From Dasania marina DSM 21967 (GTDB lineage: Bacteria > Pseudomonadota > Gammaproteobacteria > Pseudomonadales > Dasaniaceae), in contig NZ_KB891586.1 of assembly GCF_000373485.1 (NCBI RefSeq), forward strand, positions 262,734-326,733: a stretch of 64,000 nt of DNA, written 5' to 3'. The position numbers and the translations under genes are program-made. The notes under the pieces are model-generated. The model saw only the letters and a program-made list of their open reading frames with translations, was not told the origin of the DNA and did no database searches. Position 1 is the stretch's first letter. Each line of letters starts with the position of its first letter. This document shows positions 5,585-61,252 of the stretch, in pieces.

Positions 5585-7234
5585 ATGAAAGCGTCAGACC
5601 TAATGGTGAAATGCCTAGAAGAAGAAGGCATAGAATATATTTTTGGTGTGCCCGGCGAAGAAAACGCCGACTTTATGATGTCGCTGGAGCACTCCGAGCA
5701 AATACGATTCATCCTCACCCGCCACGAACAAGGCGCGGCCTTTATGGCCGAAATCTACGGCCGCCTTACCGGCAACCCCGCTGGCTGTTTAGGTACCTTA
5801 GGCCCAGGGGCAACCAACTTAATCACCGGTGTCGCCGACTCGAATATGGATAGGGCGCCTATGCTGGTATTAACTGGCCAAGCGGCCTCCACCCGCCTGC
5901 ATAAAGAATCCCATCAAGTCATGGATGTGGTGCATATGTTTGAGCCTGTCACCAAATGGGCTACCACTATTTGGCACCCCGAAAACATCCCCGAGATTAT
6001 GCGTAAAGCGGTACGCCTAGCGCGCACTGAAAAGCCCGGCGCAGTCCATATAGAATTACCCGAAGACATAGCCAAGCTACCCTGCGATAAAACGCCATTA
6101 CCGGTGCAAAAATATCGCCGCCCAGTGCCTGCCGATAAAATCATGGACCAGGCTTTTGCTCGTATTAAGCAGGCCAAAAACCCTATTATTATTGCCGGCA
6201 ATGGCTGTATACGCCGCCGCGCCAGCAAGCAATTACGACTGCTGTGTGAAAAAACCCAAATCGGTGTACTCAGCACTTTTATGGCTAAAGGCTCAGTCGA
6301 TATGGACGCGCCCTACTGCCTATACACCATAGGCCTAGGCGCTAAAGACATACCGGCCTGCGCCATAGACGCGGCTGACTTAGTGATCACTCTGGGCTAT
6401 GACATGGTGGAATACCATCCTAAGCTGTGGAATAACGACCGCGCCAAAGACATCGTACACATAGATTTTTTACCCGCTGAAATTGATGAAAACTATCAAC
6501 CGCAAATTGAAGTAGTCGGTGATTTAGCCCATGCCCTGTGGATGCTAAATGAGCGCATCGATGCCGAAGGCTACAGCTTTGACACCACTAGGCAGCAGGC
6601 GGTACGCCGTGACATGACCGATGATTTAAATCATTACGCCGACGACATTACTGAGGGCATTATTAAACCCCAAAAAGCCCTGTGCGATGTTAGAGCGGTA
6701 ATGGGCCCTCACGATATTTTGCTATCGGATGTAGGCGCGCACAAAATGTGGATAGCGCGGCACTACCAATGCCACGAACCCAACACCTGCTTAATCCCCA
6801 ACGGTTTTTGCTCTATGGGCTTTGCCCTACCCGGTGCCATAGCGGCCAGCTTGGTACATCCCGACCGCAATATTTTAGCCATAGCTGGCGATGGTGGCTT
6901 TCTGATGAACGTGCAAGAAATGGAAACCGCCTATAGGCTTAACTGCAATATGACAGTCATGGTTTGGGAAGATGGCGGCTACGGTTTAATTGCCTGGAAA
7001 CAAACCAACGAATTTAACAAACACACCGATCTATCCTTTACCAATCCCAATTGGCTACAACTGGCCTCTGCCTTTAACTGGCACGGCCACCGCGTAGAGA
7101 ATAGCGTCGACTTAAAAGCAACATTGGCAAAAGCCCTCGCGGAAAAAGGCCCCAGTTTGGTGGTTATCCCCATAGATTACCGTGAAAATATGGCCTTAAC
7201 CGAACGCCTAGGGGAAATGAGCTGCCCTATATAA
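5585..7234 (+). CDS. Acetolactate synthase large-subunit-like ThDP-dependent enzyme
   Basis: A 549-residue thiamine-diphosphate enzyme of the acetolactate synthase/AlsS group, expected to condense two pyruvates to 2-acetolactate. Visible features are the N-terminal Pyr domain with catalytic Glu E48 (RHEQGAAFMAE), the GTLGPGATNL loop, a central Rossmann-like domain, and the C-terminal PP domain with the metal/ThDP motif starting GDG at 435-437 (AGDGGFLMN ... WEDGGYG). No IlvN regulatory subunit is adjacent, which argues for a stand-alone catabolic enzyme rather than the branched-chain biosynthetic one; this is inference. A different 2-ketoacid decarboxylation/ligation activity is possible. The start has SD AGGAG in AGCAGGAGCAAG just upstream. 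It converges on the aldehyde dehydrogenase gene across the repeat region. Confidence 0.82.
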   Translation: MKASDLMVKCLEEEGIEYIFGVPGEENADFMMSLEHSEQIRFILTRHEQGAAFMAEIYGRLTGNPAGCLGTLGPGATNLITGVADSNMDRAPMLVLTGQAASTRLHKESHQVMDVVHMFEPVTKWATTIWHPENIPEIMRKAVRLARTEKPGAVHIELPEDIAKLPCDKTPLPVQKYRRPVPADKIMDQAFARIKQAKNPIIIAGNGCIRRRASKQLRLLCEKTQIGVLSTFMAKGSVDMDAPYCLYTIGLGAKDIPACAIDAADLVITLGYDMVEYHPKLWNNDRAKDIVHIDFLPAEIDENYQPQIEVVGDLAHALWMLNERIDAEGYSFDTTRQQAVRRDMTDDLNHYADDITEGIIKPQKALCDVRAVMGPHDILLSDVGAHKMWIARHYQCHEPNTCLIPNGFCSMGFALPGAIAASLVHPDRNILAIAGDGGFLMNVQEMETAYRLNCNMTVMVWEDGGYGLIAWKQTNEFNKHTDLSFTNPNWLQLASAFNWHGHRVENSVDLKATLAKALAEKGPSLVVIPIDYRENMALTERLGEMSCPI

Positions 7235-7257
7235 AAACAGACTAATAACAAAAATAA

Positions 7258-8112
7258 AACACGCACGATGCTGAGGTTAAAGTTTTTAACTCCGCAATAG
7301 CACAAGGTCATTGCTCCATGATGGCGGCCCTCCGGGCTGCCTTCACTCTCGACTGAGCCCGGCCCCCTGCGGGGAAAGCGGCCGGTCTCAGTCGCTCCCT
7401 CAGCGCTCATCTTTAATATTCCGCAATAACCTTGCGCCATTACCTGTATATCGTAGTGACATCACACTGCATATTTCTTAGCGAAAAAATTAAACACGCG
7501 TGATGCTAGAGGGGTGAGCCGGGTGCTGTCGCGAAATATCAAAGGGCTGGCCGCGGTAGCGGATGAGACAGCGCAGCGCTTTAAGGCTCAGTAGCGGACA
7601 CGGGAACCCCGGAGGGGCCAGACCATGTAGCGGCGGCACTCGGCTCAGCCCTCGATACTAGTAAAGCATTGTGTTGGCCCAAATTGTTGCCAGTCGTAAA
7701 ATCCGAAAACACAATGCTTATCTTGCTGGTCTGGCTAAGGTTTTTTAACCCGGCAATGGCCCAAGGTCATTGCTGCATGATGGCGGCCCTCCGGGCTGCC
7801 TTCACTCTCGACTGAGCCCGGCCCCCTGCGGGGAAAGCTGCCGGTCTCAGTCGCGCCCTCAGCGCTCATCTTTGATATTCCGCAATAACCTTGCGCCATT
7901 ACCTGTATATCGTAGTGACATCACACTGCATATTTCTTAGCGAAAAAATTAAACACGCACGATGCTAGAGGGGTGAGTCGGGTGCTGTCGCGAAGTATCA
8001 AAGGGCTGGCCGCGGGAGTGGATGAGACAGCGCAGCGCTTTAAGGCTCAGTAGCGGACGCGGAAACCCCGGAGGGGCAGACCATGTAGCGGCGGCATCCG
8101 GCTCAGCCCTCG
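7258..8112. repeat. Two direct copies of a long structured intergenic repeat, period 459 bp
   Basis: The roughly 1-kb gap between two convergent genes (7235-8235) contains no convincing gene. It holds a unit at 7282-7654 repeated at 7741-8112, offset 459 bp and then 458 bp after a 1-bp deletion, with a few percent divergence. Each unit has two modules. Module A carries imperfect outer arms (7299-7316 with 7421-7438), a GGCGGCCC/GGGCTGCC hairpin and a CGACTGAG/CTCAGTCG hairpin (7350-7357, 7387-7394). Module B is bounded by arms near 7509-7525 and 7638-7653. The 15-mer AACACGC(A/G)(C/T)GATGCT marks module borders at 7258, 7493 and 7952. Candidates are a nonautonomous mobile element or a structured RNA; I cannot name the family. 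Confidence 0.85.
7664..7719. repeat. 12-bp perfect inverted repeat between the two structured units
   Basis: AAGCATTGTGTT (7664-7675) and AACACAATGCTT (7708-7719) form a perfect 12-bp stem around a 32-nt loop. It lies in the 86-bp spacer that separates the two repeat copies and is not itself duplicated. Confidence 0.8.
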
Positions 8113-8156
8113 GTTTAAAGCGCCGTAAGCTCAAATGGATATTTCTCACAGGCAAT

Positions 8157-8187
8157 AAAAAAGCCCTTACCTAGGTAAGAGCTTTTT
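8157..8187. terminator. Bidirectional terminator after the aldehyde dehydrogenase
   Basis: A stem of AAAAAGC.CTTACC paired with GGTAAG.GCTTTTT has a short loop and A/T runs on both sides. It lies 49 bp beyond the minus-strand stop codon of the dehydrogenase. Confidence 0.85.
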
Positions 8188-8235
8188 CACTGTTAAACTA
8201 GCGACCTTCACACGATCGCTATTACGCAATATGAA

Positions 8236-9729
8236 TCAACTAATATCGAACCAAGTGGATTTCAATTCACTGTAATCATCAAAGGCGTGCAAAGACTTAT
8301 CACGGCCATTACCTGACTGTTTAAAACCACCAAAGGGCACGGTAATATCACCGCCAAAATAATTATTCACCCATACTGAGCCCGCTTCTATTTCAGCGGC
8401 CACTCTATGGGCGCGGCCCAAGTTATTAGTCCAAATACCGCAAGCTAAGCCATAAATAGAATCGTTGGCTATGGCCACCGCATCGGCTTCGTCTTTAAAG
8501 GGGATAGCCACTAACACAGGCCCAAACACTTCTTCTTGGGCGACTTGCATTTGGTTATTCACGCCTTTAAAAATAGTCGGTTCGTAGTAGTAACCGCCCG
8601 CAACCACTTGTGCAGCTTTACCGCCACACACTAACTCAGCACCTTCTTTGCGAGCGACATCCACATAATACTCAACCGTGTCGAATTGTTTTTTATCAAT
8701 TAACGCGCCCATTACCGTGCTGGGGTCTAAGGGATTACCGGGCATGTGCGCTTTGGCTGCTTCTGCCACCTTAGCCACAAACTCATCGATAATCGACTCT
8801 TCTACCAATAAGCGTGAACCGGCGGTGCAGGTTTCACCTTGGTTATAGAAGATAGCCATCGCAGCCATTTTAGCGGCTTTATCTAAATCGGCATCGGCAA
8901 ACACGATATTGGGTGACTTGCCGCCCAACTCTAAGAACGTACGTTTCAAGTTAGACTTAGCTGAATACTCCATCAATAACTTGCCCACTGGCGTAGAGCC
9001 GGTAAAGGTTTGGCCGTCTATATCCATGTGCATGGCTAACGCCTCACCCAAGCTGCCACCAGGCCCAGGTAATACCTGTAACACGCCATCGGGTAGACCT
9101 GCTTCTTTGGCCAAGCCTGCTATGCGTAACGCTGTTAAAGGGGTATTAGAGGCGGGTTTTAAAATCACCGAATTACCGACTGCTAACGCTGGGCCTAACT
9201 TCCAAGCCGTGGTCGCTAAGGGAAAGTTCCAAGGGACTATGGCCACGACTACACCTAAGGGCATACGCGTAACCAAACCCAGCTCACCAGGGCCGGTAGG
9301 GGCAATTTCGTCGTAGACTTTATCCACGGCTTCGCCATTCCAGCGCAGGGTGTTAATAGCGCTAGCTGAGTCTACGTAGAGGGTATCGGAAATAGGTTTG
9401 CCGCAATCTAGGCTTTCTAACAGCGCCAGATCTTGTTGATGCGTTTCTAATAAGTTAGCCCAACGTACGATGACTTTTTTGCGCTCTGCCGGTGCTAGCT
9501 TAGACCACACCCCCGAGCGATAGGCCTGACGTGCACCCTTAACTGCAATCTCGGCATCTTCAGGGCCGCAGCAGGCTATGTCTGCTAATTTCTGGCCATT
9601 GGCCGGATTAATATTGACGGTGGTTTTACCTGATAGTGCATTAACGTATTCACCGTTAATAAAGGCACGACCTTCAATTGTGAGTTCAGCTGCGCGCTGT
9701 TGCCAATCCGCTAGGGTTAAATCACTCAT
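8236..9729 (-). CDS. Aldehyde dehydrogenase, PuuC/gamma-aminobutyraldehyde type
   Basis: An NAD(P)-dependent aldehyde dehydrogenase of 497 residues, the usual family length. The substrate-binding core contains VPWNFPL, FTGSTPVG, general base E267 in LELGGKSP and catalytic C301 in NQGETCTAGS, then EEVFGPV and PFGGFKQSGNGRD. The N-terminus (ADWQQRAAELTIEGRAFING) and C-terminus (KSLHAFDDYSELKSTW) resemble PuuC/KauB, which oxidise gamma-glutamyl-aminobutyraldehyde or guanidinobutyraldehyde in polyamine catabolism. No other polyamine gene is nearby, so the substrate is inferred. It faces the acetolactate-synthase-like gene. Start ATG at 9729. Confidence 0.88.
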   Translation of the reverse strand: MSDLTLADWQQRAAELTIEGRAFINGEYVNALSGKTTVNINPANGQKLADIACCGPEDAEIAVKGARQAYRSGVWSKLAPAERKKVIVRWANLLETHQQDLALLESLDCGKPISDTLYVDSASAINTLRWNGEAVDKVYDEIAPTGPGELGLVTRMPLGVVVAIVPWNFPLATTAWKLGPALAVGNSVILKPASNTPLTALRIAGLAKEAGLPDGVLQVLPGPGGSLGEALAMHMDIDGQTFTGSTPVGKLLMEYSAKSNLKRTFLELGGKSPNIVFADADLDKAAKMAAMAIFYNQGETCTAGSRLLVEESIIDEFVAKVAEAAKAHMPGNPLDPSTVMGALIDKKQFDTVEYYVDVARKEGAELVCGGKAAQVVAGGYYYEPTIFKGVNNQMQVAQEEVFGPVLVAIPFKDEADAVAIANDSIYGLACGIWTNNLGRAHRVAAEIEAGSVWVNNYFGGDITVPFGGFKQSGNGRDKSLHAFDDYSELKSTWFDIS

Positions 9730-28751: not shown

Positions 28752-29072
28752 ATGATCAAGCTTTGTCACATAGACGATATACCCGAAGATAGTTCTAAGG
28801 GCTTTGAATACAACGACCACAGCCTGTTTGCGGTGAAGAAAGACGGCCAACTGTTTATCTATAAAAATAGCTGCCCGCATCTGGGCGTAGAGCTAAACTG
28901 GCAGGAAGACCAGTTTTTAGATATAGATAACACCCTAATCCAGTGTAGCACCCACGGCGCCCTGTTTATTATAGAGGACGGCCAGTGTGTAGCCGGCCCC
29001 TGCTTAGGGGAGCAGTTACAAACTATATCCTACACCATAGAAGATGGCATGGTTACAGTCTCTAGTCTCTAG
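28752..29072 (+). CDS. Rieske [2Fe-2S] domain protein
   Basis: A small soluble Rieske ferredoxin of 106 residues. Cluster ligands are C-P-H (SCPHLGVELNW) and C-x-x-H (QCSTHGALF). No oxygenase or cytochrome partner is adjacent. The final codons GTC TCT AGT CTC TAG already belong to the heptanucleotide repeat array, so the stop codon and last residues are repeat-derived. Start ATG is 3 bp after the TfoX-C stop. Confidence 0.9.
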   Translation: MIKLCHIDDIPEDSSKGFEYNDHSLFAVKKDGQLFIYKNSCPHLGVELNWQEDQFLDIDNTLIQCSTHGALFIIEDGQCVAGPCLGEQLQTISYTIEDGMVTVSSL

Positions 29073-29156
29073 TCTCTAGTCTCTAGTCTCTAGTCTCTAG
29101 TCTCTAGTCTCTAGTCTCTAGTCTCTAGTCTCTAGTCTCTAGTCTCTAGTCTCTAG
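29057..29156. repeat. Tandem heptanucleotide array (AGTCTCT)n, about 14 copies
   Basis: About 100 bp of uninterrupted 7-bp units starts inside the last codons of the Rieske gene and ends at CTCTAGAATTC. The unit contains CTAG at each junction, a tetramer usually scarce in bacteria. Confidence 0.97.
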
Positions 29157-29198
29157 AATTCTGTCAGCAAACCACCTGCTGTCAACTAATTGTTTTTT

Positions 29199-29235
29199 TC
29201 TAGCGACTAAGAACTAGAGACTAGGAACTAGCAAC
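29199..29235. repeat. Dispersed CTAG/GACTAG repeat copy
   Basis: A run of CTAGCGACTA-AGAACTAGAG-ACTAGGAACTAG-type words lies between the heptamer array and the pnp terminator. Similar words occur at 29285-29318, 53326-53408 and 55297-55315. Confidence 0.75.
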
Positions 29236-29248
29236 TTTCAAACCAACA

Positions 29249-29284
29249 AAAAAGGCCAGCCCCCTTACAGGAGCTGGCCTTTTT
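29249..29284. terminator. Bidirectional terminator between the Rieske gene and pnp
   Basis: A perfect 12-bp stem of AAAAAGGCCAGC (29249-29260) and GCTGGCCTTTTT (29273-29284) has a 12-nt loop. Confidence 0.93.
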
Positions 29285-29318
29285 ACTAGCGACTAAAGAC
29301 TAGAGTCTAGCGACTCTA
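29285..29318. repeat. CTAG/GACTAG repeat copy overlapping the pnp stop codon
   Basis: CTAGCGACTA-AAGACTAGAGTC-TAGCGACTCTAGTC words run up to and include the TAG stop of pnp. Related words are in the other copies at 29199-29235, 53326-53408 and 55297-55315. Confidence 0.75.
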
Positions 29319-51561: not shown

Positions 51562-53325
51562 CTAGGGCTTAATTTCAGCAAGTTTAGCTGCGGCCAGCTC
51601 GGCTTTGAGCGGCCGCTTAAAGCTATACTTGCGTCTATAAGGGAATACGCTCTTCACTTGGCCATTGCGTATCTGCCGCTGCAGGCGCTGCCAAAACTCT
51701 GCTTGATAGATATCGCTGTGTAAGCGATCAAATACCTCTCTGGCTCGCTGATTACCAGAAAAGAACAGCCGAAACTCCTCGGGGAACACGTCATTAGGGG
51801 CCACGTTATACCAAGGGCCACTAGCCATTTCCTGCTCTTCGGTTTGCGGCTGGGGTATTTTGCGGAAATTACAGTCCACTAAAGGGCAGATTTCATCGTA
51901 GTCGTAAAATACCACCCGACCATGGCGGGTCACCCCAAAGTTCTTTAGCAACATATCGCCGGGGAATATATTTACTGCCGCCAGCTGCTTAATGGCATTG
52001 CCATATTCATCCATCACGCTTTCTACTTGCTGATCACTCGCATCTTTAAGGTAGAGGTTTAAGGGCACCATTTTGCGCTCTACGTACACATGTTTAAGTA
52101 TCAGCACATTGCCCAGCTCTTCTATTAACGAGGGCACCTCACGCACCAACTCCTCCATAAGCTCATCGGAAAAGCGCCGCCTATCAAATACCAGGTTTTT
52201 AAACTCTTGGGTATCGGCCATACGGCCCGCTCTATCCCAGCGTTTAACCAATACGTATTTTTCCTCCACCTGCGCCCTAGTCATATCTTTAGGCGGGGTA
52301 AATCTATCCTTAATTACCTTATAGACGTAATCGAAACCCGGACGGGTAAACACCAGCATCACCATGCCTTTAATACCCGGCGCGGTGACATATTCATCAT
52401 CGGAGTGCATGGTCTCCCATACCGCTCGCCGAAAGAACACGGTTTTAGCATGCCTAGCAAAACCCAGGGCGCTGTACAGTTCAAACACTTCTTTTTGCGG
52501 CATCAGTTTTTTCAAAAAAGCCACAAACTGTGAAGGCACAGAGGCATCCACCATAAAATAGCTACGGGTGAAACTGAATAGAATACTGACATCATCAGCT
52601 TCGTTAAGCACGGTATCTACATAAACACCGCCGCACTCATTATTCATAAAAGGCAACACAAAGGGGATACTATCTTCGCCATCGATGATACGCCCCACTA
52701 GGTAGGCCGCCTTATTGCGATAAAACAGAGACTCCAATATTTCCGCCCTAAAGACCTCACCCTGCAGTAAACGCTCGCCTAGCAGGGCTTCTAAAATCTC
52801 CGCCACACGCTGCACATCACGCTCAAAATCCTCAAAGGGCACATTGAAATCAGTGCTCGCTAACACGCTACGCACAAACGGACTTACTTCGGTGATTTTA
52901 TAACGATCAAAAATTTTGCTGGGGGCGATATCAATATCCATATCGTCGCCATCGAAAACAAAGGAGAATTTATCGCGAATTTTTCTATGCTTAAAAATAA
53001 AACAATAGACCGAATTAAAAAAGGTCTGCGCTATTTCGTAATTGCTGTGGGTTTCAACGATATCCGCATAATCAAGCTTAGCGTGCTCCCACACCTCTGG
53101 GTCGCCTAGCAAATCGCCCGCCACAGTTTCAGCCACCGCCGCCACCTCGGCCACCTTCTTTTTATACATGGACAGCCGATTACTCATCTCTGCTTGTACT
53201 AAATTCCAATCCGCTTTTTCAAAACGGGCCTGGGCACCTAAAGTGACATTTTGAAAATCACCAAAAAAGGAATCAAAGCCATTTAAGATGGCTTTGGCTA
53301 AGCGTAGTGAGCGGGTCATACCCAT
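51562..53325 (-). CDS. aceK: Isocitrate dehydrogenase kinase/phosphatase
   Basis: Bifunctional enzyme that inactivates or reactivates isocitrate dehydrogenase, diverting carbon into the glyoxylate shunt. It has 587 residues, full length. It has an N-terminal regulatory domain and a C-terminal kinase-like domain with IFPGDMLLKNFGVTRHGRVVFYDYDEI as the catalytic region. It is not in an aceBAK operon here but sits near aceA and glcB in the same block, so its role with them is clear. Confidence 0.97.
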   Translation of the reverse strand: MGMTRSLRLAKAILNGFDSFFGDFQNVTLGAQARFEKADWNLVQAEMSNRLSMYKKKVAEVAAVAETVAGDLLGDPEVWEHAKLDYADIVETHSNYEIAQTFFNSVYCFIFKHRKIRDKFSFVFDGDDMDIDIAPSKIFDRYKITEVSPFVRSVLASTDFNVPFEDFERDVQRVAEILEALLGERLLQGEVFRAEILESLFYRNKAAYLVGRIIDGEDSIPFVLPFMNNECGGVYVDTVLNEADDVSILFSFTRSYFMVDASVPSQFVAFLKKLMPQKEVFELYSALGFARHAKTVFFRRAVWETMHSDDEYVTAPGIKGMVMLVFTRPGFDYVYKVIKDRFTPPKDMTRAQVEEKYVLVKRWDRAGRMADTQEFKNLVFDRRRFSDELMEELVREVPSLIEELGNVLILKHVYVERKMVPLNLYLKDASDQQVESVMDEYGNAIKQLAAVNIFPGDMLLKNFGVTRHGRVVFYDYDEICPLVDCNFRKIPQPQTEEQEMASGPWYNVAPNDVFPEEFRLFFSGNQRAREVFDRLHSDIYQAEFWQRLQRQIRNGQVKSVFPYRRKYSFKRPLKAELAAAKLAEIKP

Positions 53326-53408
53326 ATTTTTAGTCTCTAGTTGTTAGTCGACAGTCTCTAGCTTTTTCTAGCGGCTTTTCTAGCGACTAGGAACTAGCCA
53401 CTAGCGAC
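53326..53408. repeat. CTAG/GACTAG repeat cluster between rraA and aceK
   Basis: About 80 bp of AGTCTCTAG, GACAGTCTCTAG, CTAGCGACTAG and GAACTAG words fill the gap and run into the last codons of rraA, encoding its terminal LVASS and TAG stop. Confidence 0.8.
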
Positions 53409-53875
53409 TCTTTAGCAATAATAATGCCGGTGCCGTCGGCATAGAGGTAATCGCCGGGGTTTACGGTTACGCCGGCAAACTGCAAGGGGATGTTGATTTG
53501 GCCTTCGCCGCGCTTTTCGGTTTTTCTGGGGATTGTGCCTAACGCCATCACCCCCATGTCCATCTCTGCAATATCTTCTATGTCACGGATATAGCCGTAT
53601 ATCACTATGCCTGCCCAGTTATTTTTTACTGCCTTGGCCACCAGCATATCACCCAGCAACGAACGCCTAGGCGAAGCGCCGCCGTCTACTACCAACACTC
53701 TACCTTTACCTTCAGTGGCAACTAGCTCGGCAACTTTTGAGTTGTCCTCAAAACACTTAACCGTTACTACTTCACCGCCAAAGCGGCGAATAGGGCCGTA
53801 ATGGTTAAATACAGGCGCTACAACTTGCACGGCATCGCCGTACTCATCACATAAATCAGGGGTAGAAATTTTCAT
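53387..53875 (-). CDS. rraA: RraA family protein (ribonuclease E regulator/aldolase family)
   Basis: 162 residues from the ATG at 53875, 10 bases after AGAGAG. The RraA/HMG-aldolase-like fold is indicated by VVDGGASPRRSLLGDMLVAKAVKNNW and GIVIYGYIRDI, with the GxxD-type substrate motif at the former. It inhibits RNase E in E. coli; some family members are 4-hydroxy-4-methyl-2-oxoglutarate aldolases, so the function is not certain. Its last codons and stop lie in a CTAG repeat. Confidence 0.9.
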   Translation of the reverse strand: MKISTPDLCDEYGDAVQVVAPVFNHYGPIRRFGGEVVTVKCFEDNSKVAELVATEGKGRVLVVDGGASPRRSLLGDMLVAKAVKNNWAGIVIYGYIRDIEDIAEMDMGVMALGTIPRKTEKRGEGQINIPLQFAGVTVNPGDYLYADGTGIIIAKESLVASS

Positions 53876-55290: not shown

Positions 55291-55296
55291 TTTTCC

Positions 55297-55315
55297 AGCG
55301 ACTAGAAACTAGCCG
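55297..55315. repeat. CTAG/GACTAG repeat copy after aceA
   Basis: GCGACTAGAAACTAGCCGC, a single short copy of the dispersed family, lies between the aceA stop and its terminator. Confidence 0.7.
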
Positions 55316-55333
55316 CTAAAGACACCAAAACCC

Positions 55334-58143: not shown

Positions 58144-60312
58144 ATGGCAACGCGCATACAACAGGGCGGCTTACAGGTCGACAGTACCCTACACTCGCTC
58201 ATTAATGAGCAAGTCATCCCCGGCACCGGTGTTAACACCGCGCATTTTTGGCAAAGCTTTGAAGCCATACTCAGCGACCTCAGCCCTAAAAACAAAGCAC
58301 TACTAGACCAACGCGCCAGCCTACAACAACAAGTTAACGACTGGCACAAAGCCCACCCCGGCCAAGCTTTTAACTTTGCAGAATACAAAAGCTTTTTACA
58401 AAAAATCGGCTATCTAGTCGCCGAAGGCGAAGACTTCAGCATTAGCACCCAAAACGTAGAGCCCGAAATTGCCGAGCAGGCAGGCCCGCAATTAGTGGTG
58501 CCTATTATGAATGCCCGTTTTGCCCTTAATGCCGCTAACGCTCGCTGGGGTAGCTTATACGATGCTCTCTATGGCACCGACGTTATCGCCAATGAAGGCA
58601 GCATTGCCAAAACCGCCAGCTTCAACCCTTTGCGTGCCGACGAAGTACGTCGCCTAGCAAAAACCTTTTTAGACAGCGCCGCACCTTTAAATGGCGCCTC
58701 ACATAAAGACGCCGCCGGTTACAGCATTAACAACGGCAAGCTCAACGTGTTATTAAAAAATGGCGAGACTGTTACCTTAATCGACAACCAACAATTGCAA
58801 GGCTATCAAGACGATGCCGCCAAACCCAGTATCGTTTTGCTCAAACACAACAACCTACATTTTGAGATAGAGATCGATCAGCAACTGTCACGTAAGGTCG
58901 ATGCTGCCGGCGTAATAGACGTTAACCTAGAAGCCGCACTCTCCACCATTATGGACTGCGAAGATTCCGTTGCCGCTGTCGATGGTGAAGATAAAGCGCT
59001 GGCCTATAGCAACTGGCTGGGGTTAATGAAGGGCGATTTAAACGTCACTCTCAAAAAAGGCGAGCAAGAATCTATACGCCGCCTCAACCCCGACCGTAAC
59101 TACACCAGCCCCAAGGGTAAAAAGTTTTCACTCAAGGGGCGCAGCTTATTATTTATTCGCAACGTCGGCCACCTCATGACTAACCCCGGTATTTTAGATA
59201 GCCATGGCAACGAAGTGCCCGAAGGTATTATGGACGGCATGATCACCTCACTAATTGCCATGCACGACTTAAACGGCAGCGGCCCCTTGCGCAACAGCCG
59301 CGCCAACAGCATTAATATCGTCAAACCTAAAATGCACGGCCCCGAAGAAGTGGCCTTCACCAATGAATTATTTGGCCGCATAGAAGACGCCCTAGGGCTA
59401 GAGCGCCACACCATTAAAGTGGGCATTATGGATGAAGAGCGCCGCACCTCGGTGAACTTAAAAGAGTGCATACGCGCAGCCAAAGACCGCGTGGTATTTA
59501 TTAACACCGGTTTCCTAGACCGCACCGGCGACGAAATACATACCAGCATGGAGGCCGGTCCTATGGTACCCAAGGCCGAAATGAAAGCGCAGAAATGGAT
59601 AACCGCCTATGAAAACTCCAATGTCGATATAGGCTTAGCTTGTGGCCTGCAAGGCAAATCACAAATTGGTAAAGGCATGTGGGCCGAACCCGACAACATG
59701 GCAAAGATGATGGAAGCTAAAATTGCCCACCCACTGTCAGGCGCCAACACGGCCTGGGTACCCTCGCCTACCGCCGCCACTTTGCACGCCATGCACTACC
59801 ACCAAGTCAACGTGCAAAACCAGCAGCAGGAAATTAAGCAGCGCGCCGCCGCCAGTGTCGATGATATTTTAACCATCCCCTTATTAGGCGACCGTAAACT
59901 CAGCGCTGACGTAATTCAAAAAGAATTGGATAATAATGCCCAAGGCATTTTAGGCTATGTGGTCCGCTGGGTAGATCAAGGGGTGGGCTGCTCAAAAGTA
60001 CCCGACATCAACAACGTAGGCCTAATGGAAGACAGAGCCACCTTGCGTATTTCCAGCCAACACATAGCCAACTGGTTACACCACGGCATATGCAGCCAAG
60101 CGCAAGTCATGGAAACCTTACAACGCATGGCAGCCATTGTTGATAGCCAAAATGCAGGCGACCCGGCATACACCACTATGGCACCCAGCTTTAACGGCCT
60201 AGCTTTTCAAGCCGCCTGTGATTTAGTGCTTAAAGGCTGCGAACAACCCAGCGGTTATACCGAGCCCGTTTTACACGCCAAACGTTTAGCCCTAAAAGCG
60301 CAACAAGCGTAA
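58144..60312 (+). CDS. glcB: Malate synthase G
   Basis: Condenses glyoxylate and acetyl-CoA to malate. It has 722 residues, the long monomeric G type rather than AceB. The catalytic region includes [37 protein letters not shown] and ALQ-type C-terminal residues. It follows the LysR gene, with a strong terminator after it. Together with aceA it completes the glyoxylate shunt. No promoter was assigned in the 139-bp gap. Confidence 0.97.
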
Positions 60313-60326
60313 GCAAACCATTAACA

Positions 60327-60378
60327 AAAACAAAAAAAGGCGCGTGTTAATGATTTAACACGCGCCTTTTTTTGTTTT
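60327..60378. terminator. Bidirectional terminator between glcB and dapB
   Basis: A perfect 24-bp stem (60327-60350 with 60355-60378) with a GGCGCGTG core, flanked by A7 and T7, and a 4-nt loop. It ends transcripts from both converging genes. Confidence 0.97.
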
Positions 60379-60406
60379 GTCTGTGCTGCCGCAGTAAGAC
60401 CTAGCT

Positions 60407-61252
<846 letters not shown>

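Follow-up and report, generated by a model that had tools for sequence, protein, structure and literature searches.

Two copies of a 372-bp unit, 459 bp apart, lie between convergent genes of Dasania marina DSM 21967, and the question that they raise is what kind of element this is and how it came to occupy the gap. The window, our term for the whole 64,000-nucleotide stretch of DNA that was analysed, carries them in a 1001-bp gap (7235-8235) bounded on the left by a TPP-enzyme gene (+) and on the right by an aldehyde dehydrogenase gene (-). A preliminary description made from the letters of the sequence had reported this duplicated layout, which we confirmed, and had offered a nonautonomous mobile element or a family of structured RNAs as its possible explanations.

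An array built from one folding module

Alignment of the two copies yielded a first homologous block at 7283-7582 and 7742-8041 (95% identity over 300 nt) and a second at 7603-7654 and 8061-8112 (87% identity, register off by one). Each copy was found to hold two modules, A and B, and the array resolves into the following parts.

7250-7275, + strand: apparent stump of a B module fused to the spacer upstream of A, with the 15-mer border at 7258-7272 (repeat and pattern search)
7283-7447, - strand: module A, copy 1; core 7309-7433 (-), covariance model 67.4 bits, E 8.9e-18
7448-7506, no strand: A-B linker, copy 1, its 3' end formed by the 15-mer border
7507-7656, + strand: module B, copy 1; core 7522-7635, covariance model 109.3 bits, E 1.7e-30, a match by construction, as this core is one of the model's 32 seed rows
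7657-7741, no strand: B-A spacer, containing a 12-bp inverted repeat (7664-7675 / 7708-7719)
7742-7906, - strand: module A, copy 2; core 7768-7892 (-), covariance model 63.9 bits, E 1e-16
7907-7965, no strand: A-B linker, copy 2, in register with copy 1
7966-8114, + strand: module B, copy 2; core 7981-8093, covariance model 96.8 bits, E 1e-26
8153-8192, no strand: terminator-like bidirectional hairpin, a palindrome at the 3' end of the array (folding energy -13.8 kcal/mol on + and -23.0 kcal/mol on -)

Both modules of copy 1 fold far better than expected from their composition (A, 7283-7445, and B, 7507-7655; z = -5.74 each, with none of 200 dinucleotide shuffles as good), in keeping with the two independently folding modules per copy described earlier. 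These modules are not unrelated, however: A copy 1 is matched on the - strand by a profile HMM as well (E 1.9e-8), and A and B are one module type present in both orientations. The remark that A pairs better in its second copy also held, with + strand energies of -78.3 kcal/mol for copy 2 and -66.6 kcal/mol for copy 1. The 15-mer AACACGC(A/G)(C/T)GATGCT, previously placed at module borders in general, does occur exactly at 7258, 7493 and 7952 (five matches with up to two mismatches, against 0.43 expected) but is specifically the 5' border of B modules, and at other places it sits immediately before B. Because the copy at 7258 is followed by A instead, we read it as the probable remnant of a B module since deleted. 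As had been judged from the sequence, no plausible reading frame was found in the units, none of at least 100 aa overlapping them, though an 87-aa frame does.

The complete module spans 150-165 nt and consists of a three-way-junction core of about 115 nt enclosed by an outer stem, P1, which was left out of the covariance model. To describe the core we aligned 32 examples from four genus-level groups (Dasania, the marine gammaproteobacterium HTCC2143, Mangrovimicrobium and Oceanicoccus MAGs), which share the consensus helices P2, P2', P3 with its tip, and P4. Across these cores 95.3% of cells are paired, 73 of them altered on both sides, and the core pairs covary, with a score of 0.360 compared to 0.100 in shuffled alignments (0/500 as high) and a drop to 0.028-0.118 once the partners are offset by 1-3 columns. 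Compensatory double changes affect 9 of the 18 pairs (6.7 in shuffles), and a weaker measure, the count of further pair types, gave 20 compared to 17.4, equalled by 43/500 shuffles. The core fold is thus strongly conserved by covariation across the four groups. Unpaired junction bases are conserved across genera as well, partly by construction, since most seeds were collected by a 25-mer whose bases are thereby fixed in the alignment. Strong covariation alone is not proof of an RNA gene.

Dispersal, placement and turnover

BLASTN with the unit returned 14 matches in the host genome (best E 7e-215), distributed over 8 loci, and 25 matches, partial ones counted, at 11 loci in a congener (G001). 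The preliminary description had named a single locus lacking homologues, covariation and a transcript as the mark of a mere local duplication; further loci, homologues and covariation were all found, and local tandem duplication alone is ruled out by dispersed copies in the host, in the congener and in other genomes of the order. The dispersed repeat family is therefore solid, in agreement with the earlier proposal of a nonautonomous mobile element: it is multi-copy, occupies some sites in one congener only, is patchy within the order and holds no plausible reading frame.

With the covariance model we detected modules in 15 of 390 genomes and 9 of 142 genera of an order-level set, host included, and in 2 of 369 genomes of a class-wide sample, namely the host and one weak single match; because the best 9-10 candidates per genome were scored in these searches, the copy counts are lower bounds. 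A renewed search of 13 carriers found several matches (up to 15) in nine and one match in four, such that carriers mostly hold multiple copies, often as outward-facing pairs. BLASTN of the Dasania unit against plasmid and phage collections and an exact 25-mer search of viral contigs gave no match, in searches that diverged modules would escape. Among open-licence PubMed Central papers we found no description of the module family, a comparison that lies apart from the 92 stem-loop families of PMC2267715. Two neighbourhoods among the carriers deserve separate mention. In genome G002 (locus L134), a 6S RNA gene (1724-1901) is preceded, at a distance of about 110 bp, by a module (1501-1616), and in two congeners (L131 in G185; L133/L145 in G262) modules occupy apparently the same gap upstream of what we take to be an IHF-beta-like gene, one congener carrying a single module there and the other an outward pair.

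All eight host arrays lie between convergent ORFs, compared to a baseline of 7 convergent pairs among 49 adjacent ORF pairs in the window, and 8 of the 11 congener loci are likewise convergent, the other three being called tandem. Outside the Dasania arrays, crude ORF calls classified 27 loci as 14 convergent, 11 tandem and 2 divergent; this set derives from 30 loci, selected mainly as single-module loci, three of which (L177, L178 and L180) later showed a second one nearby. The terminal hairpin accompanies 6 of 8 host arrays and 6 of 11 congener loci. A search of both Dasania genomes with its pattern (up to three mismatches) gave 9 + 8 hits at 12 places, all of them array ends, and the reversed-pattern control gave none in either genome. 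By eye, diverged hairpins were also seen at the congener loci L041, L044 (second array), L045 and L047; the loci L037, L039 and L049 showed none.

Such placement raises the possibility that the modules have a DNA-level function for the host where genes converge, as two-way transcription stops or as gyrase or nucleoid-protein sites of the kind described for BIMEs, and that they spread by recombination instead of transposition. The convergent settings in the host and elsewhere, the bidirectional hairpin and the variable make-up of arrays at shared sites (below) all speak for this account; on the other side, the modules are patchy in the order, six of the seven convergent gaps in the window lack the element, and some sites are occupied in one congener only. 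We regard it as improbable.

The window also contains repeats of other types. Tandem heptamer-based repeats (AGTCTCT / AGCGACTAG) occur at 29043-29161, 53318-53409 and 55291-55324, the first overlapping the convergent gap 29072-29316, and similar AGTCGCTAG runs adjoin the arrays at L034 and L050. At 60327-60378, in the convergent gap 60312-60407, two perfectly matching 24-bp arms enclose a 4-nt loop, an inverted repeat that has the appearance of a bidirectional terminator. In genome G006, a short dispersed repeat, GTCATTCCCGCGAAGGCGGGAATCCAG (L016, 1737-1764), recurs in dozens of places, and it is present at some places in G001, G002, G003, G005 and G014 too.

Comparison of the two Dasania genomes indicated that seven of the eight host sites are also occupied in the congener, with flanks about 73-84% identical, so that any movement must be slow or old. 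Three one-species sites were compared, with L045 and the first array of L044, apparently also congener-only, set aside. At two sites occupied in the congener (L042 and L047), the host lacks the element and the flanks stand 103 and 272 bp apart, as opposed to 889 and 1015 bp. At the third (L037), occupied in the host, the congener carries 551 bp of other sequence instead and is thus not a clean empty site. The covariance model detected no module in the three regions lacking the element. Intergenic flanks of the congeners are too diverged to align at the junctions of these three sites, and for this reason no target-site duplication is readable; one-species occupancy may reflect loss instead of gain. 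Array make-up differs at 6 of the 7 shared sites, and most modules (23 of 30 B, 24 of 26 A) have their nearest neighbour in their own genome. For 19 B and 19 A modules the orthologous site holds a counterpart, which in no case is the nearest neighbour; the pattern is consistent with concerted evolution or with modules at old sites being replaced repeatedly.

Orientation, strand preference and the outer stem

A and B share one fold and are homologous in inverted orientation. The covariance model, only one of whose 32 seed rows is a Dasania A, places A on the strand opposite to B in 18 of 19 Dasania arrays, the remaining array (L048) consisting of B alone, and the profile HMM gives the same placement in 16 of the 19 arrays. 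The same inverted arrangement was observed in HTCC2143 and in Mangrovimicrobium sediminis. Among neighbouring cores of other genera, 13 of 16 face outward (<- ->), with one inward pair and two in the same direction, and a later search added two further outward neighbours (loci L177 and L178). All ten Mangrovimicrobium neighbours face outward, and the HTCC2143 arrays contain seven outward and two inward pairs. Dasania arrays alternate between the two, as a tandem (AB)n requires; outward cores are separated there by 48-91 bp (median 88, n = 23) and inward cores by a median of 124 bp (n = 17).

In Dasania and HTCC2143, the strand on which a module folds better follows module orientation and not array orientation: the + strand is favoured for B in 30/30 Dasania cases, the - strand for A in 18/19, and the core strand in 11/11 HTCC2143 cases, although modules of one genome are not independent and counts such as 30/30 therefore overstate the evidence. 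No such preference was apparent in Mangrovimicrobium or Oceanicoccus, where 10/20 and 5/8 modules, respectively, favour the core strand. With DNA folding parameters the preferred strands are unchanged. Substitutions within the helices of Dasania B are biased toward tolerance of G-U, which occurs in 22 Watson-Crick pairs as opposed to six with A-C (one-sided binomial 0.002, valid only if pairs are independent). For Dasania A, the structure predicted on the + strand has eight pairs with G-U and eight with A-C, and that predicted on the - strand has 11 and five. The structures behind these counts come from prediction on one strand, which gives G-U an advantage on that strand; among the 23 A pairs predicted on both strands, read on +, four show G-U and seven A-C.

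These data bear directly on whether the modules are a structured non-coding RNA family, expressed as transcripts of their own or as 3'-UTR elements, kept by selection on RNA function and multiplied by ordinary duplication. Several observations lend weight to this second proposal of the preliminary description: the strong covariation across genus-level groups, the G-U tolerance of B, the better folding of the core strand in B and HTCC2143, the terminator-like hairpin at array ends and the unpaired junction bases, conserved in part by construction. Conserved loop bases could mean RNA function, and GGA in the P4 loop could make a Csr/Rsm-type sponge a candidate role. What stood of the proposal is the conserved fold. 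Its expression as RNA fares less well, as the two modules are oppositely oriented and, in Dasania, each is best on its own strand, such that one transcript cannot hold both in their better form; on this ground we rejected the simple reading as a single-transcript RNA. The absent strand preference in Mangrovimicrobium and Oceanicoccus likewise argues against RNA function, as does the lack of a promoter excess (2 found, 1.0 expected). Five early cases had suggested that the core strand follows that of the neighbouring gene, an idea that failed in the larger set of tandem contexts, in which crude ORF calls, several of them doubtful, gave six on the same strand and five on the opposite one. Rfam offered no family at its gathering cut-off over the window modules or 11 other loci, and a permissive search of 7100-8300 returned five hits, all below their own cut-offs. 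While the strand data may fit either single-stranded DNA (ssDNA) or separate RNAs, we consider an RNA family unlikely overall.

The outer stem behaves differently from the core. Several genomes have a P1 helix that pairs well, often over 21-40 bp, and whose sequence varies by locus. Its arms are often unlike between loci of one genome in G279, G056, G012 and G371, with pairing kept: three G279 stems pair at 40/40, 27/27 and 29/31 positions with unrelated letters, and G371 stems range from 21/22 and 30/31 down to 23/29. Two G056 stems with 26-nt arms differ at six compensated positions and pair at 26/26 in both, and single-locus stems in G002 and G185 pair at 24/24 and 32/32. By contrast, the P1 sequence is common to different loci in Dasania, the arms are common or alike at some loci of G012, G056 and G371, and some module matches have a P1 of only 6-10 nt by the arm-pairing method used.

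Template switching during replication, which PMC8794818 describes, has to be taken seriously as another source of part of the covariation and could account for P1 arms that are well paired within loci and unlike between them, including the compensated G056 pair. Were it to act alone, the units would be ordinary local tandem duplications of meaningless palindromic DNA. Dispersal, the junction bases common to several genera and the bias of B toward G-U over A-C would then go unexplained, and we consider this highly improbable. The P1 data also admit a new class of structure-recognised mobile element in which an enzyme with no relation to RAYTs moves the conserved core and P1 is remade wherever the element lands, for instance through self-primed copying of the flank in inverted form; a stem made anew in this way would pair well within each locus while its sequence varied from locus to locus in one genome. 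We hold this version to be quite unlikely.

A candidate mobile repeat among known systems

Taken together, we favour the unit being a non-autonomous, structure-bearing mobile repeat, BIME/REPIN-like in its working and larger in scale, to which we assign a probability of roughly 0.65. Under this model, the dispersal unit would most likely be the outward inverted pair A(<-) B(->), each half of which is a stem-closed three-way junction. The junctions would fold in an ssDNA intermediate, and an enzyme acting in trans would recognise their shape and copy the A-B pair into new intergenic sites, with copies persisting mainly at convergent gene ends. Units would then multiply locally into (AB)n arrays and be homogenised across loci by recombination, possibly as gene conversion, while selection on folding, template switching between arms during replication, or both would keep the helices paired. 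Arrays in place might plausibly also influence how neighbouring genes are transcribed, through bidirectional termination or 3'-end structure. The enzyme, the ssDNA intermediate, gene conversion and any benefit to the host are the conjectural parts of this model; dispersal, module pairing and orientation, covariation, one-species occupancy of some sites, patchy distribution, within-genome similarity and location were observed.

Our search for such an enzyme covered the Y1 transposase class (PF01797) in G000 (the host), G001, G006 and G057, followed by 24 further genomes. Among these 24, a Y1 match was present in nine of the 12 carriers, one of them scoring under the family cut-off, and in nine of the 12 non-carriers, and this equal frequency implies that Y1 presence does not follow module presence; PF01797 had no match in the carriers G002, G006, G007 and G384, some of which are incomplete assemblies. 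Neither BLAST nor the covariance model identified a module at the four Y1 loci inspected, which were taken from G000, G001 and G057 with up to 1.5 kb on each side. A RAYT/Y1 partner is consequently not supported, and the searches used found no transposase or recombinase linked to modules. Whole-unit BLASTN in the host (E <= 1e-3) recovered the arrays only, at a threshold below which short ends shared with an IS would fall.

The Y1 searches yielded some observations of their own. Genome G016 has 49 PF01797 matches, many of them fragments near contig ends. Two Y1 transposase genes (L113 on G001 C9 and L114 on G000 C7) have GGGGTCGTAACGATTATTTTT-type sequence on one side, with an inverted GGGGTCGTAACGATTATTTTT-type copy on the other side of the gene at L113 too, and locus L112 has GGGGTCAG-type ends. 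The L113 and L114 loci resemble the TIRtrons presented in PMC3733652 and are unrelated to the modules.

Comparison with known repeats places the family closest to REP-derived systems. Like BIMEs, which are the nearest precedent for alternating arrays (as presented in PMC2817692), the modules are extragenic and palindromic inverted homologues, arranged in alternating orientation and in tandem within intergenic gaps, with variable copy number and a preference for the 3' sides of genes, the latter also reported for REPs (PMC3733652). They differ in that the unit is a three-way-junction module of 150-165 nt, as opposed to the 20-40 bp given for REP units in PMC3733652, and in having no associated RAYT that we found. 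Copy number, usually above 100 per genome for REPs according to PMC2817692, is likewise not REP-like, at 14 matches in the host, 25 including partial ones in G001 and 1-15 in 13 other genomes. Alignments of module ends contain no GTAG or CGTC tag, and GTAG occurs inside Dasania B. REPINs (PMC3116915) are the nearest precedent we encountered for an inverted doublet as a dispersal unit, and the modules resemble them in being non-autonomous and in forming such doublets, as reflected in the 13 outward pairs compared to one inward and two same-direction pairs in other genera; unlike REPINs, they lack a short REP core and each half folds alone, and we found no RAYT with modules at its flanks.

The TIR repeats of tyrosine transposases are another near precedent, described in PMC3733652 as moderately abundant, partly self-complementary and arranged in dimers and clusters, all of which applies to the modules; in contrast to TIRtrons, the four Y1 loci fetched had no flanking modules. 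With the MITE-like repeats ERIC/YPAL, RUP and NEMIS, as outlined in the same source, the modules share short, coding-free, intergenic sequence that would fold strongly if transcribed, and they differ in their composite inverted-module architecture and in that BLAST revealed no host IS sharing the unit sequence. In our best reading, the family passes as BIME/REPIN-like but fails on unit size, tag, copy number and a linked RAYT.

If the mobile-repeat model is correct, the module family poses a concrete question, namely what copies A-B pairs. Because its outer stems differ between loci yet stay paired, the family also provides a natural test of fold selection against template switching. The junction of a large cloverleaf-like module would have stayed conserved in several marine genera although the searches to date link no transposase to it, and RAYT-linked REPs would not be the sole means by which bacteria keep folding non-coding repeats.
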